Origin: an uncultured Selenomonadaceae bacterium
GTDB taxonomy: Bacteria; Bacillota; Negativicutes; Selenomonadales; Selenomonadaceae
DNA: 64,000 bases
Assembly: GCA_905234235.1 (NCBI GenBank)
Contig: CAJOHN010000005.1
Location: forward strand, 62,001-126,000
Direction: 5' to 3'
The notes under the pieces were generated by a model. It was not told where the DNA came from. It did not search any database and worked only from the letters and a program-made list of their open reading frames with translations. Positions within the stretch are counted from its first letter, which is position 1; each line of letters begins with the position of its first letter. Positions 29,794-59,622 of this stretch are shown piece by piece. Position numbers and translations under genes: made by a program.

Positions 29794-29881
29794 CTCCGAT
29801 AAAAATTTTATGCGATTATATCACATTCAAACGGAAAAAGCCCCGCAAGTTAGCGAGACTTTGTTAATTTTCGATATTGGT

Positions 29882-29926
29882 TGGTACGCTCGGCGCGACT
29901 CGAACGCGCGACCCACGGCTTAGAAG
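29882..29926 (-). repeat. tRNA-Arg(TCT) 3'-half, candidate att site A
   Basis: Minus strand CTTCTAAGCCGTGGGTCGCGCGTTCGAGTCGCGCCGAGCGTACCA: anticodon loop to CCA, D-arm absent. Confidence 0.8.
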
Positions 29927-38553: not shown

Positions 38554-38929
38554 CTCCGAAAAATCTACGCAGAGATTCTACCACAAAAATTTTGCTCTGA
38601 CTACTGCCTCAACGAGAGCTCAAACGCGATGCACAAATTTGTCCGTTGCGCTTGCAAACTTGCAGTGATCCGCACCTTAAAAATTGGCTGATTTAGTCCA
38701 CTGTCTGTCCGTCCGTGGAAAAAATCCCTGGCTGTCAACAACCTTTTCCTTGCTTATATTCGGCGGACGAAACGGACAGTCGGACAACTCTACAATCTGA
38801 TAGTGAATCACTTTACTTGCAACGCTTGTCAAAAAGTGATTCACGTTTCGGCAAAAAATAAAAGCGGACGAGCAATTAACTCGTCCACCTTAAGCGTAAT
38901 CTGTCATCGAAAAATGCCCTGCAGAGCGT
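38554..38929. repeat. ~375-bp direct repeat, copy 2
   Basis: Partner of 31499-31854 in the same orientation. Confidence 0.9.
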
Positions 38930-40091
38930 CGACTGCTTGCCGTTGCATGTCGGGCAAAACGTGGCTGTAAGTGTCCATCGTGACTTTGATTGAGCTGTGA
39001 CCTAAACGTTCCTGAACGATTTTGGGATTGACGCCTTGCCGCAGAAGTAACGTCGCGTGAGTGTGGCGCAAGCCGTGAAAAGTAAAATCCGAGCTGATGT
39101 CGCATTTCTTTAACAGCGGCTTGAAGTATCGTCTGCTGAAATTCGTCGGGCTTATCGGTTCGCCGAACGGGCTGGTGAAAACGAGATTATGCCCCGCAAA
39201 CAAATCGCCCAGCTCTTCGGAATAGTTTTCCTGCCACTTTTTATAGACGCGAAGATTTTTAATGTCTTCCGGCATGAGCAAAATGCGTCTGATACTGTTT
39301 TTGGTCTTGGGAGCTTGAAAAACCGCGCCTTTGCCTATGACGTGAGCCAACGAGCGGCGAATAAACAGGCAGGATTTTTCAAAGTCAACGTCTTCCCATT
39401 TGAGCCCGAACACTTCGCCTTGACGCATTCCGGTGTGAACAGTCAGAGAAATTATCTGCGGCATAACGACGCTCATGAACTGATGATCAATTTCTTTTGC
39501 CGCGTTGATAAGCCGAGCAATTTCATCTTTCGACAGGACGGCGATTTCTTTCTTGCTCAATTTCGGAGCTTTCGTAAGGCGAACGACATTCGACGATACA
39601 AGCCCTGACTTAACTGCGTCGTCAATGCACATGCTGAGATAACGCCGCGTTCCTCTGACGGTCGAACTTGATAAGCCTGTGCCGTCCGTTCGTCCCGTTT
39701 CCAACAGCCGATTGAAATTTTTCTGCAAATCTGCCGCAGTCAATTCGTTAAGCAGAACATTTTCAAAGACTGGCAGAATGTACGCCTTCAATGTACCGGA
39801 ATATTTTTCGTAAGTTCGCGGTCTGACATTCGGCTTTGCATAATTCTCCAACCAATTTCTAATCCAGTTTCCAACGGTTAATTTTTCGTCATCGTTTGCC
39901 GTTCGATTAAGGCTGTCGATAAACTCTTTGCCCTTCTGCATTGCCTCGCGCTTAGTCTTTGCGGCAAATTTTTTGCGGCCGCGATTTCCGTAAGCGTCGG
40001 TGTAACGGAGCTGGTAAATCCAAATTCCGCGTTTAACGTCGTGAAAGAAGCCGCCCTCGCCTGAATTTCTCTTGCCCATAATTGCCTCCAA
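38904..40091 (-). CDS. int: tyrosine recombinase / phage integrase
   Basis: TGMRQGEVFGLKWEDVDF, HGLRHTHATLLLRQGVNPKIVQERLGHSSIKVTMDTYSHV catalytic box. Confidence 0.95.
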   Translation of the reverse strand: MEAIMGKRNSGEGGFFHDVKRGIWIYQLRYTDAYGNRGRKKFAAKTKREAMQKGKEFIDSLNRTANDDEKLTVGNWIRNWLENYAKPNVRPRTYEKYSGTLKAYILPVFENVLLNELTAADLQKNFNRLLETGRTDGTGLSSSTVRGTRRYLSMCIDDAVKSGLVSSNVVRLTKAPKLSKKEIAVLSKDEIARLINAAKEIDHQFMSVVMPQIISLTVHTGMRQGEVFGLKWEDVDFEKSCLFIRRSLAHVIGKGAVFQAPKTKNSIRRILLMPEDIKNLRVYKKWQENYSEELGDLFAGHNLVFTSPFGEPISPTNFSRRYFKPLLKKCDISSDFTFHGLRHTHATLLLRQGVNPKIVQERLGHSSIKVTMDTYSHVLPDMQRQAVDALQGIFR

Positions 40092-45962: not shown

Positions 45963-46422
45963 GCGGAAGCCTCCTTTTGAGCAAGGCACGATTCGCAAAG
46001 GTAAATGGTTTTACCGTCAGAGTCGACAAAGGGCACGAGTTCGTCGGCAAGGAAATATTGGTCGCAATCGAAATCATTTTCCAGACACCGTTGGCAAACG
46101 GAACTGCCGTCGGCGACGGTAGTAAATTCGCTTTTGGGATGATATTCCTCGCAGTGTTCGCAGAAGCGGTAGTAGTTGTCCAAGCAGCGAGCACAAACGC
46201 GAATGAAATCACCGCGATAATTAATGACTTCCCAAGTTTCGTAGCAAGCTTGCTCGCACTCTTGGCAGAATTCGTGGTCATCATCAGGGTCGCAATCGGA
46301 GCAGTAAAGCCCATCGGAAGTTTCGCACCCGCAGGAAATGCACAAGCCGTAAGTAGCGACTTTGAAAGACTCGAAGTCGTGAGAGTCGCGAATGGAAATC
46401 TTGGCGTTGAAATCGGGATATA
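45959..46422 (-). CDS. 3' exon of intron-split gene: cysteine-rich zinc-ribbon domain
   Basis: YPDFNAKISIRDSHDFESFKVATYGLCISCGCETSDGLYCSDCDPDDDHEFCQECEQACYE...CARCLDNYYRFCEHCEEYH. Confidence 0.7.
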
Positions 46423-48965
46423 GTGATAGGTAAGGCTTTGAGGTAATCGCCGCCTTTTCCCCCACTCCACACCGTACGTGAGAGTTTCCCCTCATACGGC
46501 GTTCCATCTTTGATATTTCATTTCAATCTAATCAATCTACCGAAAGGGTATTGTTACCGATAATTTGTCTTAACACATTGAGCTTTTTGAAATTAGGTTT
46601 ACAGGCTTGCAGGTATTTTTGAATTGTTTTGATATTGGTTGCGTGAATGAGGTTATGAACGGTTGCCGTAACAAGGATTAGGTTTTGATAATCGTCCGTT
46701 CCGCCTTGAGATTTTGGAGTTTTGTGGTGGCAGTGGATTTCGTCCGTTGAAGTGAATTTCTCACCCGTGACAGCGCATAATCCCTTTTGAGCAAAGTAGA
46801 GAGAAATACGGTTGTTCGCATATTCGAGACTTCTGTCGAAAAGCGGTTGACGGAAAAGTTTGAGTTTGATTTCGTCAATCGCTTCGACTGGTGCCTGATT
46901 GCTATTGCACCTTGCAAATTTGTGCTGAACGTAACCGATAGGATAAATAGGCTCATCGGCGAGGTAACGTAGCATTGCCGATTTGCCGTAGCGTGTTCGT
47001 TCGGACGGAGTAAGTTTTCTTCCCTTTCTGCTGATTCCTTTAAGCCTGTTGGTGATGACAGTCATAATAGCCCTGTTGAGTTTGCTGGCGTCTTTGCTGA
47101 TGTTGGTTGCGATTTGGTAATAATTTTGAATTCCCAAAACCATTTTGTTGAAGAGAAAAATTTCTCCGAGCTGTCCTTTTTCCGGTCGAGGGTTCCTGAT
47201 TCGTTTAATTTGTTCAACAAGGACTTTACGTTTTGCCGTCAGTTGTTTGTCGCTGATGTGCGACTGTACTACCTGTTTATTGCCTCTGGAATGGACTTTT
47301 ATTTTAAAGCCTAAGAATTCGGAATATCTGTGCTTAACGTTGACGACGCGAGTTTTTTCTTGCGAGACTTCCAACTTGAGTCTTTCTTTGAGCCATTGCG
47401 TGATAGCAATTTTTGTCTTTTCAGCCGCAGTTTTTGTCCTGCAAAAGATACGGAAGTCGTCGGCGTAACGCACAATGTACATTTCTTTGAGATTGGTGTT
47501 GCGCATAGCTCTGTAAGCGTGACTTTTAATTTTAGTTCCCTTCGCGTTTGTTCTTTGCGAATATTTGTAAACGACGGGATTTTCTTCCCAGTTGCTTTCT
47601 ACCCAATGGTCGAGTTCATTTAGCACAATGTTTGCCAGAAGTGGTGAAATGATTCCGCCTTGCGGTGTTCCTTTTTGCGGATATATGAGTTTGCCGTCGG
47701 GCAGTTTGATAGGGGCTTTGAGCATACGCAAGATTTTTCCGAGTAAGTGTTTATCTCTGATTCCCAGCGTCCACATTTGCCGAATTAGTTTTGAGTGGTT
47801 GACGTTATCGAAAAATCCCTTGATGTCAAATTCGATAACGTAATGCAGGTGTCCGAGTTGCATTCGCATTCCTGCTTCTGCAATGGCATTTTCTGCAGAG
47901 TGGTTCGGTCTGAAGCCGTGGCTGTGCTTGCTGAAATGAGCTTCACAAATCGGCTCCAATACTTGCTTGAAACATTGCTGAATCATTCTGTCCCAAATGC
48001 AAGGGATACCGAGCGGGCGCGTGCTTCCGTTGGGCTTAGGAATGTCCTTCCGTCTGACAGGTTTAGGTCGGTAGCCTCTTTTTGTGCCAGAAATGATGAA
48101 ATTGATTTTAGCGGTCACTTCTTCGGGCGAAAGTTTGCCGATGTCCGCGATTGTCAATTTATCCGTTCCGGCGGTATTGCTCCCTGTGTTGTTCTTGATG
48201 TTCCTGTACGCAAGCAGAATATTTTCTCTGCTAAGGACGAGCGGCATTAAGTTTGTGAAGTGTTCGCCGTTCTTCGCCCGTTCGTACAGGTCGTTGTAAA
48301 TGTTTTCCTTTGGCATAAGGCATCACCCCCTTAGGAGTGACCCTTTTGGTCTTGCTCGAATCCTTATTCGATTGAGTGATTGATATGAAATTGTCAAAGA
48401 CTTGTGCCCATTCCTCCAGCCCCATTACAGAGCCTTCATAGGTTCGAGCACTACTTTTCAGCGTCGATTCAGCCGCTTATTTTTCTTCGTCGGCTTACTG
48501 AACTGTTCGACGCCTTTCCTTGTTCCGATAATCCTATCTTTGCATATGGCTTTAGGTCTTTGCTATGAGCCTGTGAGCTTGACAATGCCTGTAACATTGT
48601 ATGGCTTTCTGTAGGACACATTGAGTCAGCCACACTCACGACGATTTAACGCCAACTGCATTTCTACAGCTTCGACTTCTAGACCCGTACATTCGCAAAT
48701 TCGTCAGTCCTTATTCGGGACATTCTAACTATAGCCAATTTGTAGACCTCCGGCATATAGATGACACCAACCGCCTCCGGTCAGCTTTCCTCGGCTTTAA
48801 CCGTTAGGGTCATTGTCTGCCGCCTTTACCGAGCTTCGGACGAAATCGCCCGTCGGAGTATTAAGGAGAGCGTTTTGGGGCGTTACTCCCGCATTCCACT
48901 CTTCGGATTATCAGTTCGCTTGATTACTCAAGCGCAACGTCTTTTCAACGTTGAACAAGTCGCAC
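46423..48965 (-). mobile_element. group II intron
   Basis: 5' end GTGCGACTTG at 48965; near the 3' end GAACGCCGTATGAGGGGAAACTCTCACGTACGGTGTGGAG (domain V-like); 3' end CCTATCAC; encodes LtrA-like RT-HNH. Confidence 0.85.
46532..48316 (-). CDS. ltrA: group II intron reverse transcriptase/maturase with HNH endonuclease
   Basis: RPLGIPCIWDRMIQQ, GTPQGGIISPLLANIVLNELD, YIVRYADDFRIFC, C-terminal CAVTGEKF...IHCHHKTPKSQGGTDDYQNLILV. Confidence 0.95.
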   Translation of the reverse strand: MPKENIYNDLYERAKNGEHFTNLMPLVLSRENILLAYRNIKNNTGSNTAGTDKLTIADIGKLSPEEVTAKINFIISGTKRGYRPKPVRRKDIPKPNGSTRPLGIPCIWDRMIQQCFKQVLEPICEAHFSKHSHGFRPNHSAENAIAEAGMRMQLGHLHYVIEFDIKGFFDNVNHSKLIRQMWTLGIRDKHLLGKILRMLKAPIKLPDGKLIYPQKGTPQGGIISPLLANIVLNELDHWVESNWEENPVVYKYSQRTNAKGTKIKSHAYRAMRNTNLKEMYIVRYADDFRIFCRTKTAAEKTKIAITQWLKERLKLEVSQEKTRVVNVKHRYSEFLGFKIKVHSRGNKQVVQSHISDKQLTAKRKVLVEQIKRIRNPRPEKGQLGEIFLFNKMVLGIQNYYQIATNISKDASKLNRAIMTVITNRLKGISRKGRKLTPSERTRYGKSAMLRYLADEPIYPIGYVQHKFARCNSNQAPVEAIDEIKLKLFRQPLFDRSLEYANNRISLYFAQKGLCAVTGEKFTSTDEIHCHHKTPKSQGGTDDYQNLILVTATVHNLIHATNIKTIQKYLQACKPNFKKLNVLRQIIGNNTLSVD

Positions 48966-53010: not shown

Positions 53011-53676
53011 TTACTTGAGCAATTTGGTATCGTTGCCGCCGCGCAGAGCATTGTTCGCGAAAGTCGGCGAAATATATTGGCTTGCGTTCGTCATCGTGTT
53101 TTCGGTGATTCGTTGCACGCTGTCCATCATCTTTGAAAAATCAGCGTCGATTGTCCGCATGAACCGATCCGACGTGTCGATAATGTTGTTGAGCTGTTTT
53201 TCGACCGCGTTTTCCATAATCGTCCGCGCACGTGTCTCCGTCGGAAATTTTTCGTAAATGCGTTCGAGTTGAGCCGCCGCCTTGTCCATTGCCGCTTCTT
53301 GCAACGCCGAATATTGTTTCTGTTTATCTTCGACCAAAGCCGTTGCGCGTTCGCGAAGTTCGATATTCATGTTGCCGAGCGAATTTCCGATTGAAACAGT
53401 GCACTCCGCCATCGTCCGCTGATATTTTGCAATCGCTTCCATGACCAGAGAGTTTCGCTCAATTTCCTTGCGAGCAACCATGTCGTCGAGTTCAGCGTTA
53501 AATTTCTGGCGGTCGAACTCCAGCTTTTGCATGAATTGCGCCTCTTCCTGCCGGAGTTTTTGATCGTGAGCGGCGTTTTTGCGTTCCTGATAAAATTTCA
53601 GCTGATTGTCAATGATCTCAAGCGGCTTGTCGATAATCGAGCCGCCGACGAGTTTCAAAACTTTCATCAAGCTCAT
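53011..53676 (-). CDS. coiled-coil protein of the GTPase operon
   Basis: 221 aa, charged helical: FYQERKNAAHDQKLRQEEAQFMQKLEFDRQKFNAELDDMVARKEIERNS; stop of one gene overlaps start of the next. Confidence 0.7.
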   Translation of the reverse strand: MSLMKVLKLVGGSIIDKPLEIIDNQLKFYQERKNAAHDQKLRQEEAQFMQKLEFDRQKFNAELDDMVARKEIERNSLVMEAIAKYQRTMAECTVSIGNSLGNMNIELRERATALVEDKQKQYSALQEAAMDKAAAQLERIYEKFPTETRARTIMENAVEKQLNNIIDTSDRFMRTIDADFSKMMDSVQRITENTMTNASQYISPTFANNALRGGNDTKLLK

Positions 53677-53867
53677 AATTTTTTTGCCTCCTCAATTTCG
53701 CGGTCGAGCAATTTTGTTTCGCGAATAAATGACATTTCCAGTTGGTCGAGTTGCGCCGGCCAGCGTTGATTCGTGTCGATTAGTACGCCGAGCGATTCGA
53801 TTTCCGCGTTGAAAAAAATGAGTCCGTCGATTTGTAGCCCCACGCCTCCAAAAATTTTTGATACCAC
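53673..53867 (-). CDS. short helical protein of the GTPase operon
   Basis: IFFNAEIESLGVLIDTNQRWPAQLDQLEMSFIRETKLLDREIEEAKKL; true start uncertain. Confidence 0.45.
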   Translation of the reverse strand: MVSKIFGGVGLQIDGLIFFNAEIESLGVLIDTNQRWPAQLDQLEMSFIRETKLLDREIEEAKKL

Positions 53868-54136
53868 CGCAAAAAAATTTTCAGTATCTCACGGCGCGTG
53901 GCAACTGGAATTTCCGTGTCGTCGAACAATTTTTTGCACTTCGACCAATGCGCCTCCAGCCATTTGAGTTCGTAGCGTTTTTTGTACAGTGCGCGGACGC
54001 TTTCGTTTTTGTCCTCATACAGGAAGCGGAAAAGTTCGGGATTGCCGCTCAAAACATCTTCGACGAGCTGACGGCGGCATTCTCGCGTTATCTCGATAAA
54101 ATTTACGAGCGCAAAAACTTCCCTTTCGCTTTTCAC
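53780..54136 (-). CDS. hypothetical helical protein of the GTPase operon
   Basis: 118 aa MKSEREVFALVNFIEITRECRRQLVEDVLSGNPELFRFLYEDKNESVRALYKKRYELKWLEAHW. Confidence 0.6.
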   Translation of the reverse strand: MKSEREVFALVNFIEITRECRRQLVEDVLSGNPELFRFLYEDKNESVRALYKKRYELKWLEAHWSKCKKLFDDTEIPVATRREILKIFLRWYQKFLEAWGYKSTDSFFSTRKSNRSAY

Positions 54137-54525
54137 AAGACACCGCCCCCGAATATTTTTTCACGAAGAGCCGCGTTGAACTCCTCGACTTTTTTCGTGG
54201 TGAGGACGCCGATAAAATGCCCGCTCATGTCGAAACTTTTGTTCATGTGCTGTTCAAGGTGCTTGAGCCATTCGCGGCGCACATCGTCGGCAATCGGTTC
54301 CGCCTCTAATTTCTTCATAATCGCGGGCAAATCGTTCGCATAAAAATTTTTGACTTCCCGCGTGTGCGTCGTGTGCAAGTCGTTGATGAATTCGATTTCG
54401 TGCCGATAACTTTTCACGAGCCGCATATAATGTTCCTCGTAATCGAAAAGCATTTCTGCAGTCGTGTCTGAACGCGCAGACGATTTTCTGTGAAATTTAT
54501 CGAAAACACTGCCGCCGCTATTCAT
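54133..54525 (-). CDS. hypothetical helical protein of the GTPase operon
   Basis: 130 aa MNSGGSVFDKFHRKSSARSDTTAEMLFDYEEHYMRLVKSYRHEIEFINDLHTTHTREVKNFYANDLP. Confidence 0.65.
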   Translation of the reverse strand: MNSGGSVFDKFHRKSSARSDTTAEMLFDYEEHYMRLVKSYRHEIEFINDLHTTHTREVKNFYANDLPAIMKKLEAEPIADDVRREWLKHLEQHMNKSFDMSGHFIGVLTTKKVEEFNAALREKIFGGGVL

Positions 54526-54769
54526 TGCTCTCCTCCAATATCAAGTAAACAAGTTTCGCTTTATTTTGCGTCATAAGACGTCTTAGGATATATTCTGCAG
54601 TTCCGCTACCGACCGAAGCCACGCGATATTTGCCGTTGCGAATTCCGTCGTGAATGATTTGATAATTTGTTGACGCCCGCGGTTTGGGCAATTCGGCACC
54701 GAGATAGTTGTCTTCAATGTCGGCGACTAAAGCGTCGATGCTGTCGAATTTTTTGTCGCTCAACTTATC
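54518..54769 (-). CDS. hypothetical ~80-aa protein of the GTPase operon
   Basis: (TTG)SDKKFDSIDALVADIEDNYLGAELPKPRASTNYQIIHDGIRNGKYRVASVGSGTAEYILRRLMTQNKAKLVYLILEESNE; TTG start overlaps the TGA of the upstream gene. Confidence 0.55.
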   Translation of the reverse strand, partial: DKLSDKKFDSIDALVADIEDNYLGAELPKPRASTNYQIIHDGIRNGKYRVASVGSGTAEYILRRLMTQNKAKLVYLILEESNE

Positions 54770-55563
54770 ACGAAGAATATTATCGCTAGAATCACGACTA
54801 CCGCCGCGCAAATTAAAATTATCGGACTGCCTTTTTCCTCCGAAGACTTCGGGCTTTGGTTGCGTTTGCCTTGAAAATGTTCCGTAGCTTTGTCTTGGCG
54901 CGATGACGACGGAGGGGGAGTTTTTTTTTGAGCCTCGGCTTGCAGACGATTGATCACGCTTTGCGGCGCAGTGATGATTTCGTATTTGCCGTTCTCGAAA
55001 ATTTTCACAGCGTCGACATTTGAGCAAAAATCTTTCTGTGTGGCAAGACACTGCTCAAAAATTTCAACGTCTCCGCGCTCATCGGACGGATAAAATTTGT
55101 CGAGAGATTTTTTTTCGACGGACTTAATGCCGCAACTTTCGTAGGGCGCAATGACGGTTTCGACGGTTTGACGCTCCCATTCCGGTGCAAGATTTTTTTT
55201 GAACATCTGCCAAAGTTTGGAGTCGCTCACGTCGGGAACGCCACTGCCTTTAAATGCGTAACCGAGAAAAATTTTGACTTCCCTGTTGCGTTCATCGTGA
55301 AGATAATTTTCAGCCTCCGTGCGTTCGTCAGCTGACAGATAATTTTCAGCGAAGTAGCGGAAGTTACACGCAATACCCGCGACACAAATTTTGCCGTCAG
55401 TGGCGACGACGCGGCGCACGCCGTTTAATATGTCGACGTCGCTCATGGCGGGCAAAATTTTATTCATCGCCCACTGAACGTTCAAATCGTCAGGACGCAC
55501 CGCGAAATTCGTATTGAAGTCGCAGTAAAATGTTCGGCTGTGAATGAGCGGAGCAATTTCCAT
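54760..55563 (-). CDS. C-tail-anchored membrane protein of the GTPase operon
   Basis: Soluble 240-aa N-terminus, then SPIILICAAVVVILAIIFFVIS*. Confidence 0.68.
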   Translation of the reverse strand: MEIAPLIHSRTFYCDFNTNFAVRPDDLNVQWAMNKILPAMSDVDILNGVRRVVATDGKICVAGIACNFRYFAENYLSADERTEAENYLHDERNREVKIFLGYAFKGSGVPDVSDSKLWQMFKKNLAPEWERQTVETVIAPYESCGIKSVEKKSLDKFYPSDERGDVEIFEQCLATQKDFCSNVDAVKIFENGKYEIITAPQSVINRLQAEAQKKTPPPSSSRQDKATEHFQGKRNQSPKSSEEKGSPIILICAAVVVILAIIFFVIS

Positions 55564-55578
55564 TGCGCTAATCCCTCC

Positions 55579-56811
55579 TTAAAAATTGTAGTCGGCAATG
55601 CTCTGAACGTCAGCCCAAAGTCTTTTTATGCCGCCCTTGTTTAACCACGTGCCGTTGGCAAAAATCATTTCGAGCGCATCCAATTCGCGATTCATGCGCT
55701 TAAGACTTTTCTTGAAGTATTTGACGACTTCGCGATTATTGCGAATGGCTTGTTCGGTATCGTTAATTTCCTGCCTCAGCGCGTCAGGATCATATCCGCC
55801 GAAAAACCAGCGAGTTATTCCCCAGCGGTCATCCTCGATGCGCTTTTGTTCGCGTGCCCAATCAAGATTTTCGCGTTGCTGTTCAATAAGATATTTCCCT
55901 TCATAGAGTTGGTCAATCAGCGCGAAGTTAATTCCCATGAGAATCGGCAGGTGAATGTTTATCGGATCCAAATCGCCTTGATAGCTGTCGTCTTGCAATG
56001 TGTCGCCGAGTGAAACCGGAATTATCGCGATAATATTTTGGTTATCCTCTTCGCCGAAAAGACCTTCAAAAGCTTCCTCGACGATTTCGCGAATTTCATC
56101 GGGGTCGGTGTCGTCTTGGCACATGTCGTATTTCGTGATGAGCATTCCGATCGGCGGCAGACCAACTTTGCCCTCGTCCTTGAATTTGTTGCGCAGTTCG
56201 GTAAGATATGGATTGATATGTTTGGCGCAACGAGTCTTGACCTTGCGAATTTTGTTCCGCGTGCCGCTGCCGACCAAGTTCGCGCCGTCAATGCAGATGA
56301 AAAGCATTTCAGACTCTTTAATCGATTTTTCAACTTCCTTGTATTGCTCGCTTCCGACATCTCGACGCGTGGCGTCCAGGAAACCACCGGGATAATCTAC
56401 CCACGTAAACGGCAAAATCGTTTCGTAATCGTACTGCAAATTGAAGTTGAATTTCTGCACGTCGTCGGTGCCGGCGGGAAATCTGTTTTGCCCGCGCGAT
56501 TTGTCTTTGAGCATTTCATAGCGCAACGTGAGATTTTTATCGGCGTCGGGGTCGGTGGCAATGACCGTGTAGCCCGCAACGCTCATGCTCATTTCGTAAT
56601 ACATGCCGAGCAGGTAACACGTCTTGCCCGAACCCGTTTCGCCCAAGATCGTAAATTTTCTTCCGTCCATGTCGTTATCTCCTGTCGAATTGTTTGTGGC
56701 GGGAACCGTAAGTGTTTGCCCGTCAGCCGTGAAAATAATGTCGCCGAAATCTTTGTCATTGGCGACGACAAACGCTACGGTGCTACTCACTTGAAGGTTT
56801 ATGGCGGCCAA
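55579..56811 (-). CDS. P-loop GTPase (TRAFAC/double-GTPase-like)
   Basis: G1 FTILGETGSGKTCYLLGMYYEM, G3 FTWVDYPGGFLD, G4 GMLITKYDMCQ. Confidence 0.78.
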   Translation of the reverse strand: MAAINLQVSSTVAFVVANDKDFGDIIFTADGQTLTVPATNNSTGDNDMDGRKFTILGETGSGKTCYLLGMYYEMSMSVAGYTVIATDPDADKNLTLRYEMLKDKSRGQNRFPAGTDDVQKFNFNLQYDYETILPFTWVDYPGGFLDATRRDVGSEQYKEVEKSIKESEMLFICIDGANLVGSGTRNKIRKVKTRCAKHINPYLTELRNKFKDEGKVGLPPIGMLITKYDMCQDDTDPDEIREIVEEAFEGLFGEEDNQNIIAIIPVSLGDTLQDDSYQGDLDPINIHLPILMGINFALIDQLYEGKYLIEQQRENLDWAREQKRIEDDRWGITRWFFGGYDPDALRQEINDTEQAIRNNREVVKYFKKSLKRMNRELDALEMIFANGTWLNKGGIKRLWADVQSIADYNF

Positions 56812-56829
56812 ATTTTGATGATTTTCGAT

Positions 56830-57240
56830 TCAGTCGCCTTCGCCGACGAAAACTGTACCCAAACCGAATTGAATAATAAGTTTGATGCCGTCATTCGATT
56901 CAATGACAAGTCCGTCATCGAGAACTTGGAGCACACGCCCGTTGAACGGCGAAATAATTCTTCCGGTGCAATTATTTTTAATTGCGGCACCGCGACATTT
57001 TCCGCGCGAAAAATCTTCGTCGCCAAGTTCCACGAGGTCACCCTCTGCGGGAGCCGACAACAATATATTCCGTTTGGATTTTGGTTCGGAAGGTGTGTCA
57101 ATTTTTTCGCGAACGTCGGGCGGTACTTCCGAGGGCGGAATTTCTCTTGTCGTCGTCGTATCCGAATTTTTCTTATCGTCACCCGAAAGTGCCAAGCCCA
57201 CCAAACCTGCCGCCGCCGCGCCTATGAGTAAAGGAATCAT
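56830..57240 (-). CDS. membrane-anchored EIIA(Glc)-fold-like protein without catalytic His
   Basis: MIPLLIGAAAAGLVGLALSG anchor; PAEGDLVELGDEDFSRGKCRGAAIKNNCTGRIISPFNGRVLQVLDDGLVIESNDGIKLIIQFGLGTVFVGEG follows the PTS EIIA_1 pattern. Confidence 0.6.
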   Translation of the reverse strand: MIPLLIGAAAAGLVGLALSGDDKKNSDTTTTREIPPSEVPPDVREKIDTPSEPKSKRNILLSAPAEGDLVELGDEDFSRGKCRGAAIKNNCTGRIISPFNGRVLQVLDDGLVIESNDGIKLIIQFGLGTVFVGEGD

Positions 57241-57257
57241 CTTATCACTACCTTTCG

Positions 57258-57410
57258 CTAGTTCTCGAATTTGCGATTGATTGTCCAAACGTGCGGTTTG
57301 TCGCCTTGCCGACGCGGGCATTTGCCGGGTTGTGGCTTACCCAGCGACACAAAGCGGATTTCTTTCTTGCCGCAGTGACTGCACATATACTCGATTCTTT
57401 TCGTTGCCAT
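57258..57410 (-). CDS. 50-aa zinc-ribbon protein
   Basis: MATKRIEYMCSHCGKKEIRFVSLGKPQPGKCPRRQGDKPHVWTINRKFEN*; below ORF-track cut-off. Confidence 0.65.
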   Translation of the reverse strand: MATKRIEYMCSHCGKKEIRFVSLGKPQPGKCPRRQGDKPHVWTINRKFEN

Positions 57411-57530: not shown

Positions 57531-57941
57531 TCAAATTCCCTTTTGGTGTTCTGCCGGAACACTGGCGACGGAATTTTCGTCCTCGGATTCCTCTTCTTCA
57601 TCATCCTTGAGTTCAGAAGGCAGAGGATTCCACCACATTTGTTTCTCCATCTCATTGAAAGTCACCAACAAGGTGATGTCGATTTGCAGTGCTTCAGCAA
57701 TGTCCGACAGGGTTATCACCGAAACGTTGTCGTGATACTTACCTCGCTCGATTCGGCTCAATGCACTGCGGCTGAGATATACCCGTTTTGCCAATTCAGA
57801 CTGGCTCATATCGCGCAGGGTTCTGTAATAGGCAATCTTCGCGCCGATCTGCTTGAGCAGTATTTGCTTTTTAACCTCCAAGTTCCCAACCTCCCCAGTT
57901 TCCTCGTAATTATCGCATATTGCCGCGACCTTTGCTTGCAC
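57531..57941 (-). CDS. XRE-family HTH regulator
   Basis: IGAKIAYYRTLRDMSQSELAKRVYLSRSALSRIERGKYHDNVSVITLSDIAEAL, acidic tail. Confidence 0.88.
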   Translation of the reverse strand: MQAKVAAICDNYEETGEVGNLEVKKQILLKQIGAKIAYYRTLRDMSQSELAKRVYLSRSALSRIERGKYHDNVSVITLSDIAEALQIDITLLVTFNEMEKQMWWNPLPSELKDDEEEESEDENSVASVPAEHQKGI

Positions 57942-59384: not shown

Positions 59385-59576
59385 GCTCTACATTCAAACA
59401 TAAATGAGAATCGTCAGCTCGTCACCGCCTGCAACCTTTGAAATCGCCGCTTGTTATCTTCGTTTCAAATATCGTCCGTTTGTCCGTGCCGTCCGTCGAT
59501 TTTATCAGTGGACCCACAAATGGACCAACAAAACGGAAAAAGCCCCAACCGAAGTCGAGACTTTGTTGATTTCATA

Positions 59577-59622
59577 TGGCGCGCCCGGCGTGACTCGAAC
59601 ACGCGACCCACGGCTTAGAAGG
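59577..59622 (-). repeat. tRNA-Arg(TCT) 3'-half, candidate att site B
   Basis: Minus strand CCTTCTAAGCCGTGGGTCGCGTGTTCGAGTCACGCCGGGCGCGCCA; no 5' half adjacent. Confidence 0.82.

Follow-up and report, generated by a model that had tools for sequence, protein, structure and literature searches.

A conserved but rare five-gene operon around a DO-GTPase2-like GTPase, partly broken in an uncultured rumen Selenomonadaceae bacterium

DO-GTPase/GAP1 systems have been described as "GTPase-centric" predicted conflict systems in which GAP1 is the defining partner, and that description (Kaur et al. 2020, PMC7159879) assigns a conserved glutamate in Walker B to the DO-GTPase2 family. A DO-GTPase-family protein, with a predicted role in membrane stress, is also included in some psp operons (PMC11237479). 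Here a related locus is analysed in a stretch of 64,000 nucleotides (the window) from an uncultured Selenomonadaceae bacterium with a genome assembly of 2.1 Mb (GCA_905234235.1, contig CAJOHN010000005.1, positions 62,001 to 126,000). The locus is a conserved but rare five-gene operon of a rumen bacterium, of which the window copy is partly broken. Re-examination of the open reading frames (ORFs) confirms the compact chain of minus-strand genes that an initial annotation, made from the DNA letters alone, had placed at 53011-57410.

The conserved core and its relation to DO-GTPase systems

The GTPase gene (55579..56670, minus strand) lies in an open frame that extends upstream to 56811. Its likely start is the ATG at 56670, which is preceded by AGGAGA and gives a protein of 363 amino acids (aa), not 410. 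The motifs recognised initially, GETGSGKT (G1), DYPG (G3) and TKYD (G4), are borne out, and residues G57, G62, K63 and T64, D139, Y140 and G142, and T226, K227 and D229 within them are invariant in the sequences of 32 relatives; the P-loop GTPase motifs looked for in a DO-GTPase2 protein (PF19993) are intact. The G3 segment reads W-x-D-Y-[P/R]-G-G, with no invariant glutamate seen within this segment. The curated cut-off of PF19993 is 27 bits; the window protein scores 24.6 bits, its direct orthologues at loci L038 and L044 score 27.3 and 28.3 bits, and some cyanobacterial paralogues reach about 57 bits. Judged by its sequence, the GTPase is either a member of the DO-GTPase2 family or lies at its border.

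AlphaFold models were made for the GTPase and partner proteins. In the GTPase model (pLDDT 86) the G domain is accompanied by a long C-terminal hairpin, consisting of helices 288-328 and 342-377, the tip of which is hydrophobic: it is occupied by aromatic or aliphatic residues in those aligned relatives, cyanobacteria included, that retain the hairpin. The top PDB matches found by Foldseek include mitofusin 1 and 2, with TM-scores of 0.23-0.30 by query length, and the matches to EF-Tu, Galpha and MglA are of similar quality; given these low scores and the mixture of matches, the protein is read as a generic G domain plus hairpin. No solved structure related by sequence to the GTPase or partner profiles was found at the limits used. 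In G050 and G033 the GTPase is tandemly duplicated (L024/L038 2049-2993), and the second copy is devoid of the helical hairpin.

The partner protein (54760..55563, minus strand) comprises a new N-terminal alpha/beta domain, a low-confidence linker and a C-terminal hydrophobic helix at residues 248-266 (AlphaFold pLDDT 88), in agreement with its first description as a tail-anchored protein; in the model this helix fits a membrane anchor. Relatives of the partner are located directly after the GTPase in Firmicutes, cyanobacteria and one metagenome-assembled genome (MAG) of the Thiotrichaceae, and the family, searched with 37 partner proteins and 10 N-terminal domains, has no significant Pfam match. 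Among the structures matched to the partner, Foldseek ranks TagF first (prob 0.85, E 0.023), a regulator of the type VI secretion system (T6SS), and the profile alignment with the N-terminal domain of TagF shows the same motif order (DF...P..F...W...D..GR). Significant sequence support for this likeness is absent: hhalign assigns TagF_N a probability of 0.25%, no better than unrelated controls, and TagF_N is not among the listed Pfam matches; T6SS genes were not noticed near the partner, though no systematic search for them was made. TagF homology is not supported by the profile alignments, and TagF is retained as a structural lead only. GAP1 homology is rejected, because alignment of the partner to six GAP1-N2 sequences by hhalign gives P=0.09-0.19, like unrelated controls, in a profile comparison that covered GAP1-N2 only and not GAP1-N1. 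The likeness of the partner to TagF and GAP1 is a lead, not a finding.

Three predominantly helical proteins complete the core, all encoded on the minus strand. Protein h130 (54133..54525) shows 22-91% identity among five-gene loci, with a ratio of nonsynonymous to synonymous substitution rates (dN/dS) of 0.06-0.18; h155 (53673..54136) is a single ORF of ~154 aa in most relatives; and the last core gene (53011..53676) encodes a 221-aa coiled-coil protein with 23-93% identity among five-gene loci and a dN/dS of about 0.1-0.2 where estimable. Substitutions in the locus are strongly synonymous, with dN/dS mostly 0.05-0.2 for the ORF pairs that allow an estimate, so that the selection suspected initially is indeed seen, as purifying selection.

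A scan of species genomes yielded 37 loci, and iterated profiles built from the window proteins reveal two layers of conservation, the five-gene set and the GTPase-partner pair. The five core genes (GTPase, partner, h130, h155 and coiled coil) are syntenic in rumen Selenomonadaceae, a Veillonellaceae MAG, a Clostridia MAG, Lachnoanaerobaculum and Ruminococcus. The GTPase-partner pair is present in Selenomonadaceae, the Veillonellaceae MAG (L046), Clostridia MAGs (L045, L050), Lachnoanaerobaculum (L047) and Ruminococcus MAGs (L049, L059), and also in many cyanobacteria, plasmids included, and the Thiotrichaceae MAG (L073). In the profile scans the set with h130, h155 and the coiled coil is found in Firmicutes only, where the three helical proteins are co-inherited with the pair. 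The system is rare and patchy, occurring in 12/381 genomes of the class and in 1/399 of the phylum sample. Among 120 sampled close relatives the GTPase gene is present in 13 and the h155 gene in 11, all of which carry both, and the two genes adjoin in the relatives' loci examined. The same-genus relatives are Selenomonadaceae contigs from ruminant guts, such as goat omasum and duodenum, roe deer rumen and sheep omasum. Co-occurrence in other genomes had been set beforehand as the test on which the chain should stand or fall; the genes do occur together elsewhere, and the chain stands.

In cyanobacteria and the Thiotrichaceae MAG the pair is found beside genes for Hsp70, a Ser/Thr kinase or dynamin-family proteins, and two dynamin-family genes lie near the Anabaena copy. 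Non-homologous operon members of the cyanobacterial relatives (L002, L003, L053-L071), including the Ser/Thr kinase, Hsp70, the second GTPase and partners, end in a [DENS]WF tail, with the variants DIWEL/DVWDL in Calothrix. The pattern occurs in 32/334 ORFs, all but one of them in the system or adjoining it, and the window proteins are without it; it is possibly a docking tail or degron. In a Clostridia MAG (L050 6288-7769) and in the Thiotrichaceae MAG (L073 7254-8993), two GTPases in tandem and the partner are preceded by a protein of 493 or 579 aa, respectively, with an N-terminal coiled coil and no Pfam family.

Measured against PMC7159879, the relatives and the window locus resemble DO-GTPase/GAP1 systems in having GTPases that score close to or above the DO-GTPase2 cut-off (in some relatives in tandem), a partner gene just downstream, a zinc ribbon and membrane helices, and Hsp70 or a kinase near the cyanobacterial relatives. 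Unlike those systems, they have a partner family without a GAP1-N2 match and with a different domain, a fused EIIA domain as input and three Firmicutes-specific helical proteins. No GASH or FNIII Pfam match was obtained for the window proteins or the h155 family. The designation of the operon as undescribed therefore needs qualification: the set is not named in PADLOC or Pfam, but its GTPase belongs to or borders a family of predicted conflict systems (PMC7159879).

A fused EIIA domain and two broken genes

The EIIA-like ORF with its hydrophobic N-terminus (56830..57240, minus strand) was correctly recognised. It encodes an N-terminal hydrophobic segment and a truncated, degenerate EIIA domain of the phosphotransferase system (PTS), which scores 28.0 bits against PF00358 (cut-off 27.2; about 29 in the cross-genome comparison) and covers positions 4-77 or 4-79 of the 127 in the model. 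At L024/L038 (577-617 aa) and L030/L044 (490-502 aa) EIIA and GTPase form a single polypeptide, and in the window the GTPase frame still opens with the last EIIA strand (VVANDKDFGDI), the mid-part of the domain being gone. It is evident from these alignments that the two window ORFs descend from one fused EIIA-GTPase gene, of which the EIIA-like ORF is the former N-terminal half.

The EIIA domains differ widely in their PF00358 scores (162.7 bits in G050, 124 in G055, 120 in G040, 46 in G065 and 29 in the window). By alignment, a full domain with both active-site histidines is present in the fused EIIA of G050, G055 and G040; both are lost from G065 and from the window copy, which holds a partial model instead of a full domain. 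The G050 domain shares 71% identity with the EIIA of a PTS-type protein encoded by another genome of the genus, which indicates that the GTPase captured its EIIA, of the glucose/beta-glucoside type, from a transporter-type protein; the known domain serves a transporter, whereas here it is joined to a GTPase. Genes for HPr are present in the host genome and in the relatives' genomes. These data support a PTS-fed input in some strains, lost in the window copy. The input is lineage-specific and absent from most relatives. No description of an EIIA-GTPase fusion was found in the open-access literature, a search scope outside which most subscription journals lie.

The second lesion concerns h155, whose profile matches the window genome as two separate pieces. 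A one-base frameshift splits the gene into ORFs of 118 and 64 aa at a T7 run (53812..53818, minus strand) in which one T is missing; at the corresponding position L029 carries T8 and its frame is open. This homopolymer could be a phase-variable tract or an assembly error. The two pieces still show dN/dS of 0.12-0.19, and the damage is therefore recent or an assembly error. Stops or frameshifts also occur at L040, L032 and L074, and most five-gene copies elsewhere look intact.

As a consequence, the count of nine genes has to be revised. One gene of ~154 aa is present as two halves, the 118-aa and 64-aa ORFs, and another as two remnants, the EIIA-like and GTPase ORFs, so that the nine correspond to seven ancestral genes, two of them broken in the window. 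The statement that the genes look intact is wrong for these two, and the five small helical ORFs said to end in the 221-aa coiled coil are present, with two of the five being the halves of h155.

Remaining genes and mobile-element surroundings

An 81-aa accessory protein (54518..54763, minus strand), whose TTG start overlaps the stop of the partner gene, is limited to the loci of the closest relatives (L024, L025, L026, L033 and L035). The predicted 50-aa zinc-ribbon-like ORF (57258..57410, minus strand) is present from the ATG at 57410, with an FmdB-type zinc ribbon match of 0.0016, below cut-off; the protein is 90-94% identical at L024, L026 and L033, with dN/dS of 0.02-0.05. The chain itself holds, but its upstream limit probably does not: a same-strand XRE-type regulator with a helix-turn-helix (HTH) domain (57531..57941, minus strand; 136 aa; Pfam HTH_3 1e-13) lies directly upstream, and its homologues (cluster c17) precede the system at no fewer than three related loci (L032, L040 and L074). 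The unit thus probably starts earlier than 57410, with the regulator as its probable first gene.

The neighbouring families c2, c4, c6 and c7 are common to six genus loci; by eye, they include DUF932-like and nuclease-like proteins, both of which also lie beside the window operon. Direct repeats resembling a tRNA 3' end are located at 29829-29926 and 59531-59621, about 29.7 kb apart and 78% identical with gaps over 101 columns; ARAGORN detects no whole tRNA. Between these repeats lies a tyrosine-integrase-like ORF (38904-40091). A group II intron at 46420-48919 is indicated by Rfam D1-D4-5 and Intron_gpII matches around a 594-aa reverse transcriptase/maturase-like ORF. The repeats and the integrase-like ORF may mark an integrative element, with putative borders, within which the operon would lie. 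Taking the shared mobile-element-like neighbours together with the integrase-like ORF, the intron and the tRNA-like repeats, we infer that integrative elements are the vehicle of the operon. The L043 copy lies outside a mobile-element context, next to an aspartyl-tRNA synthetase-like gene.

Proposed function and alternative explanations

We propose that this rare accessory operon, of which the window copy is partly damaged, encodes a membrane-associated GTPase switch, most likely acting in conflict or stress response as a GAP1-less variant of the predicted DO-GTPase systems of Kaur et al. 2020; we consider this proposal an evenly balanced one. The membrane-associated switch suggested initially is well supported as anatomy, and as function it stays a proposal. 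Anchored in the membrane through its C-terminal helix, the partner would bind the GTPase and read or set the nucleotide state of the latter, while the hydrophobic tip of the GTPase hairpin may touch the membrane or the helical proteins, and h130, h155 and the coiled coil may form a complex that carries the output. Inputs would be interchangeable: a fused PTS EIIA in several rumen Selenomonadaceae, other N-terminal extensions of the GTPase in Ruminococcus, and a Ser/Thr kinase or Hsp70 gene in cyanobacteria. The system would be kept as accessory cargo. With its EIIA degenerate and h155 frameshifted, the window copy may have lost its function, except in the event that the frameshift arose in assembly or is bypassed.

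Several observations weigh against this proposal. The window GTPase by itself falls 2.4 bits below the DO-GTPase2 cut-off, its Foldseek match lacks specificity (TM-score by query length about 0.35 or less), GAP1 is absent among the listed Pfam matches of the 37 partners and 10 N-terminal domains, and physical binding between the operon proteins is a prediction. Furthermore, no effector with recognisable toxic activity is seen, and PADLOC 2.0 gives the window proteins only weak NTPase or coiled-coil cross-hits and no match to a known defence system. A known anti-phage system is rejected for lack of a PADLOC match. A phage module is rejected too: neither INPHARED nor IMG/VR contains a relative at the sensitivities used, and PHROGs gives no significant match. 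The two further outcomes that would have spoken against the initial reading, a structural phage module or a system already named in PADLOC or Pfam, are not seen. Of the "defence or conflict" role put forward initially, the tie to the DO-GTPase family stands; the role itself follows by guilt by association, with neither an effector nor a known defence system to match, and defence is our leading guess.

The alternative that the locus encodes a regulator of envelope or nutrient status, in which GTPase and partner tune a membrane process (surface structure, secretion or envelope stress) to sugar supply via EIIA, appears rather unlikely. It would account for the retention of both histidines in the fusions of L038, L044 and L032 in genomes with HPr, for the missing toxic effector and for copies outside a mobile-element context such as L043, and the predicted membrane-stress role of the psp-operon proteins is in line with it (PMC11237479). 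The rare, patchy distribution and frequent decay of the system, however, suit accessory cargo better, and the EIIA input is missing from most relatives. Also unlikely, in our judgement, is a degenerate relic of an integrative element that is functionless in this strain. The two split genes of the window, the lesions at L040, L032 and L074 and the possible location between the tRNA-like repeats all agree with such a relic, but the low dN/dS persisting even in split pieces points to lesions that are recent or assembly errors, and most five-gene copies elsewhere look intact. A membrane-remodelling machine, with a mitofusin- or dynamin-like GTPase, the hairpin as paddle and the helical proteins as stalk, is improbable: the order of G domain and long hairpin with a hydrophobic tip, the mitofusin matches and the dynamin-family genes near the Anabaena copy recall such proteins, but TM-scores no higher than 0.30 by query length confine the likeness mainly to the G domain, EF-Tu, Galpha and MglA give matches of similar quality, and there is no dynamin Pfam match; dynamin/mitofusin identity is rejected, the similarity being that of a generic G domain.

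Within the proposed GTPase switch, a doubtful but specific extension is that the PTS gates a conflict-type GTPase in rumen Selenomonadaceae, with the captured EIIA reporting carbon flux between phosphoenolpyruvate and pyruvate by its phosphorylation and setting the threshold of the membrane switch, and with the partner domain as the functional counterpart of GAP1. Sugar-uptake signalling is rarely linked as directly to a GTPase switch as it is in the EIIA-GTPase fusion. The two "extra genes" of a single MAG that proved to be lesions call for caution with gene counts. The partner domain recurs from Firmicutes to cyanobacteria without a Pfam model, and the five-gene version is a compact form of the system that is amenable to laboratory testing. 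If true, the proposal would extend the predicted DO-GTPase systems beyond GAP1.

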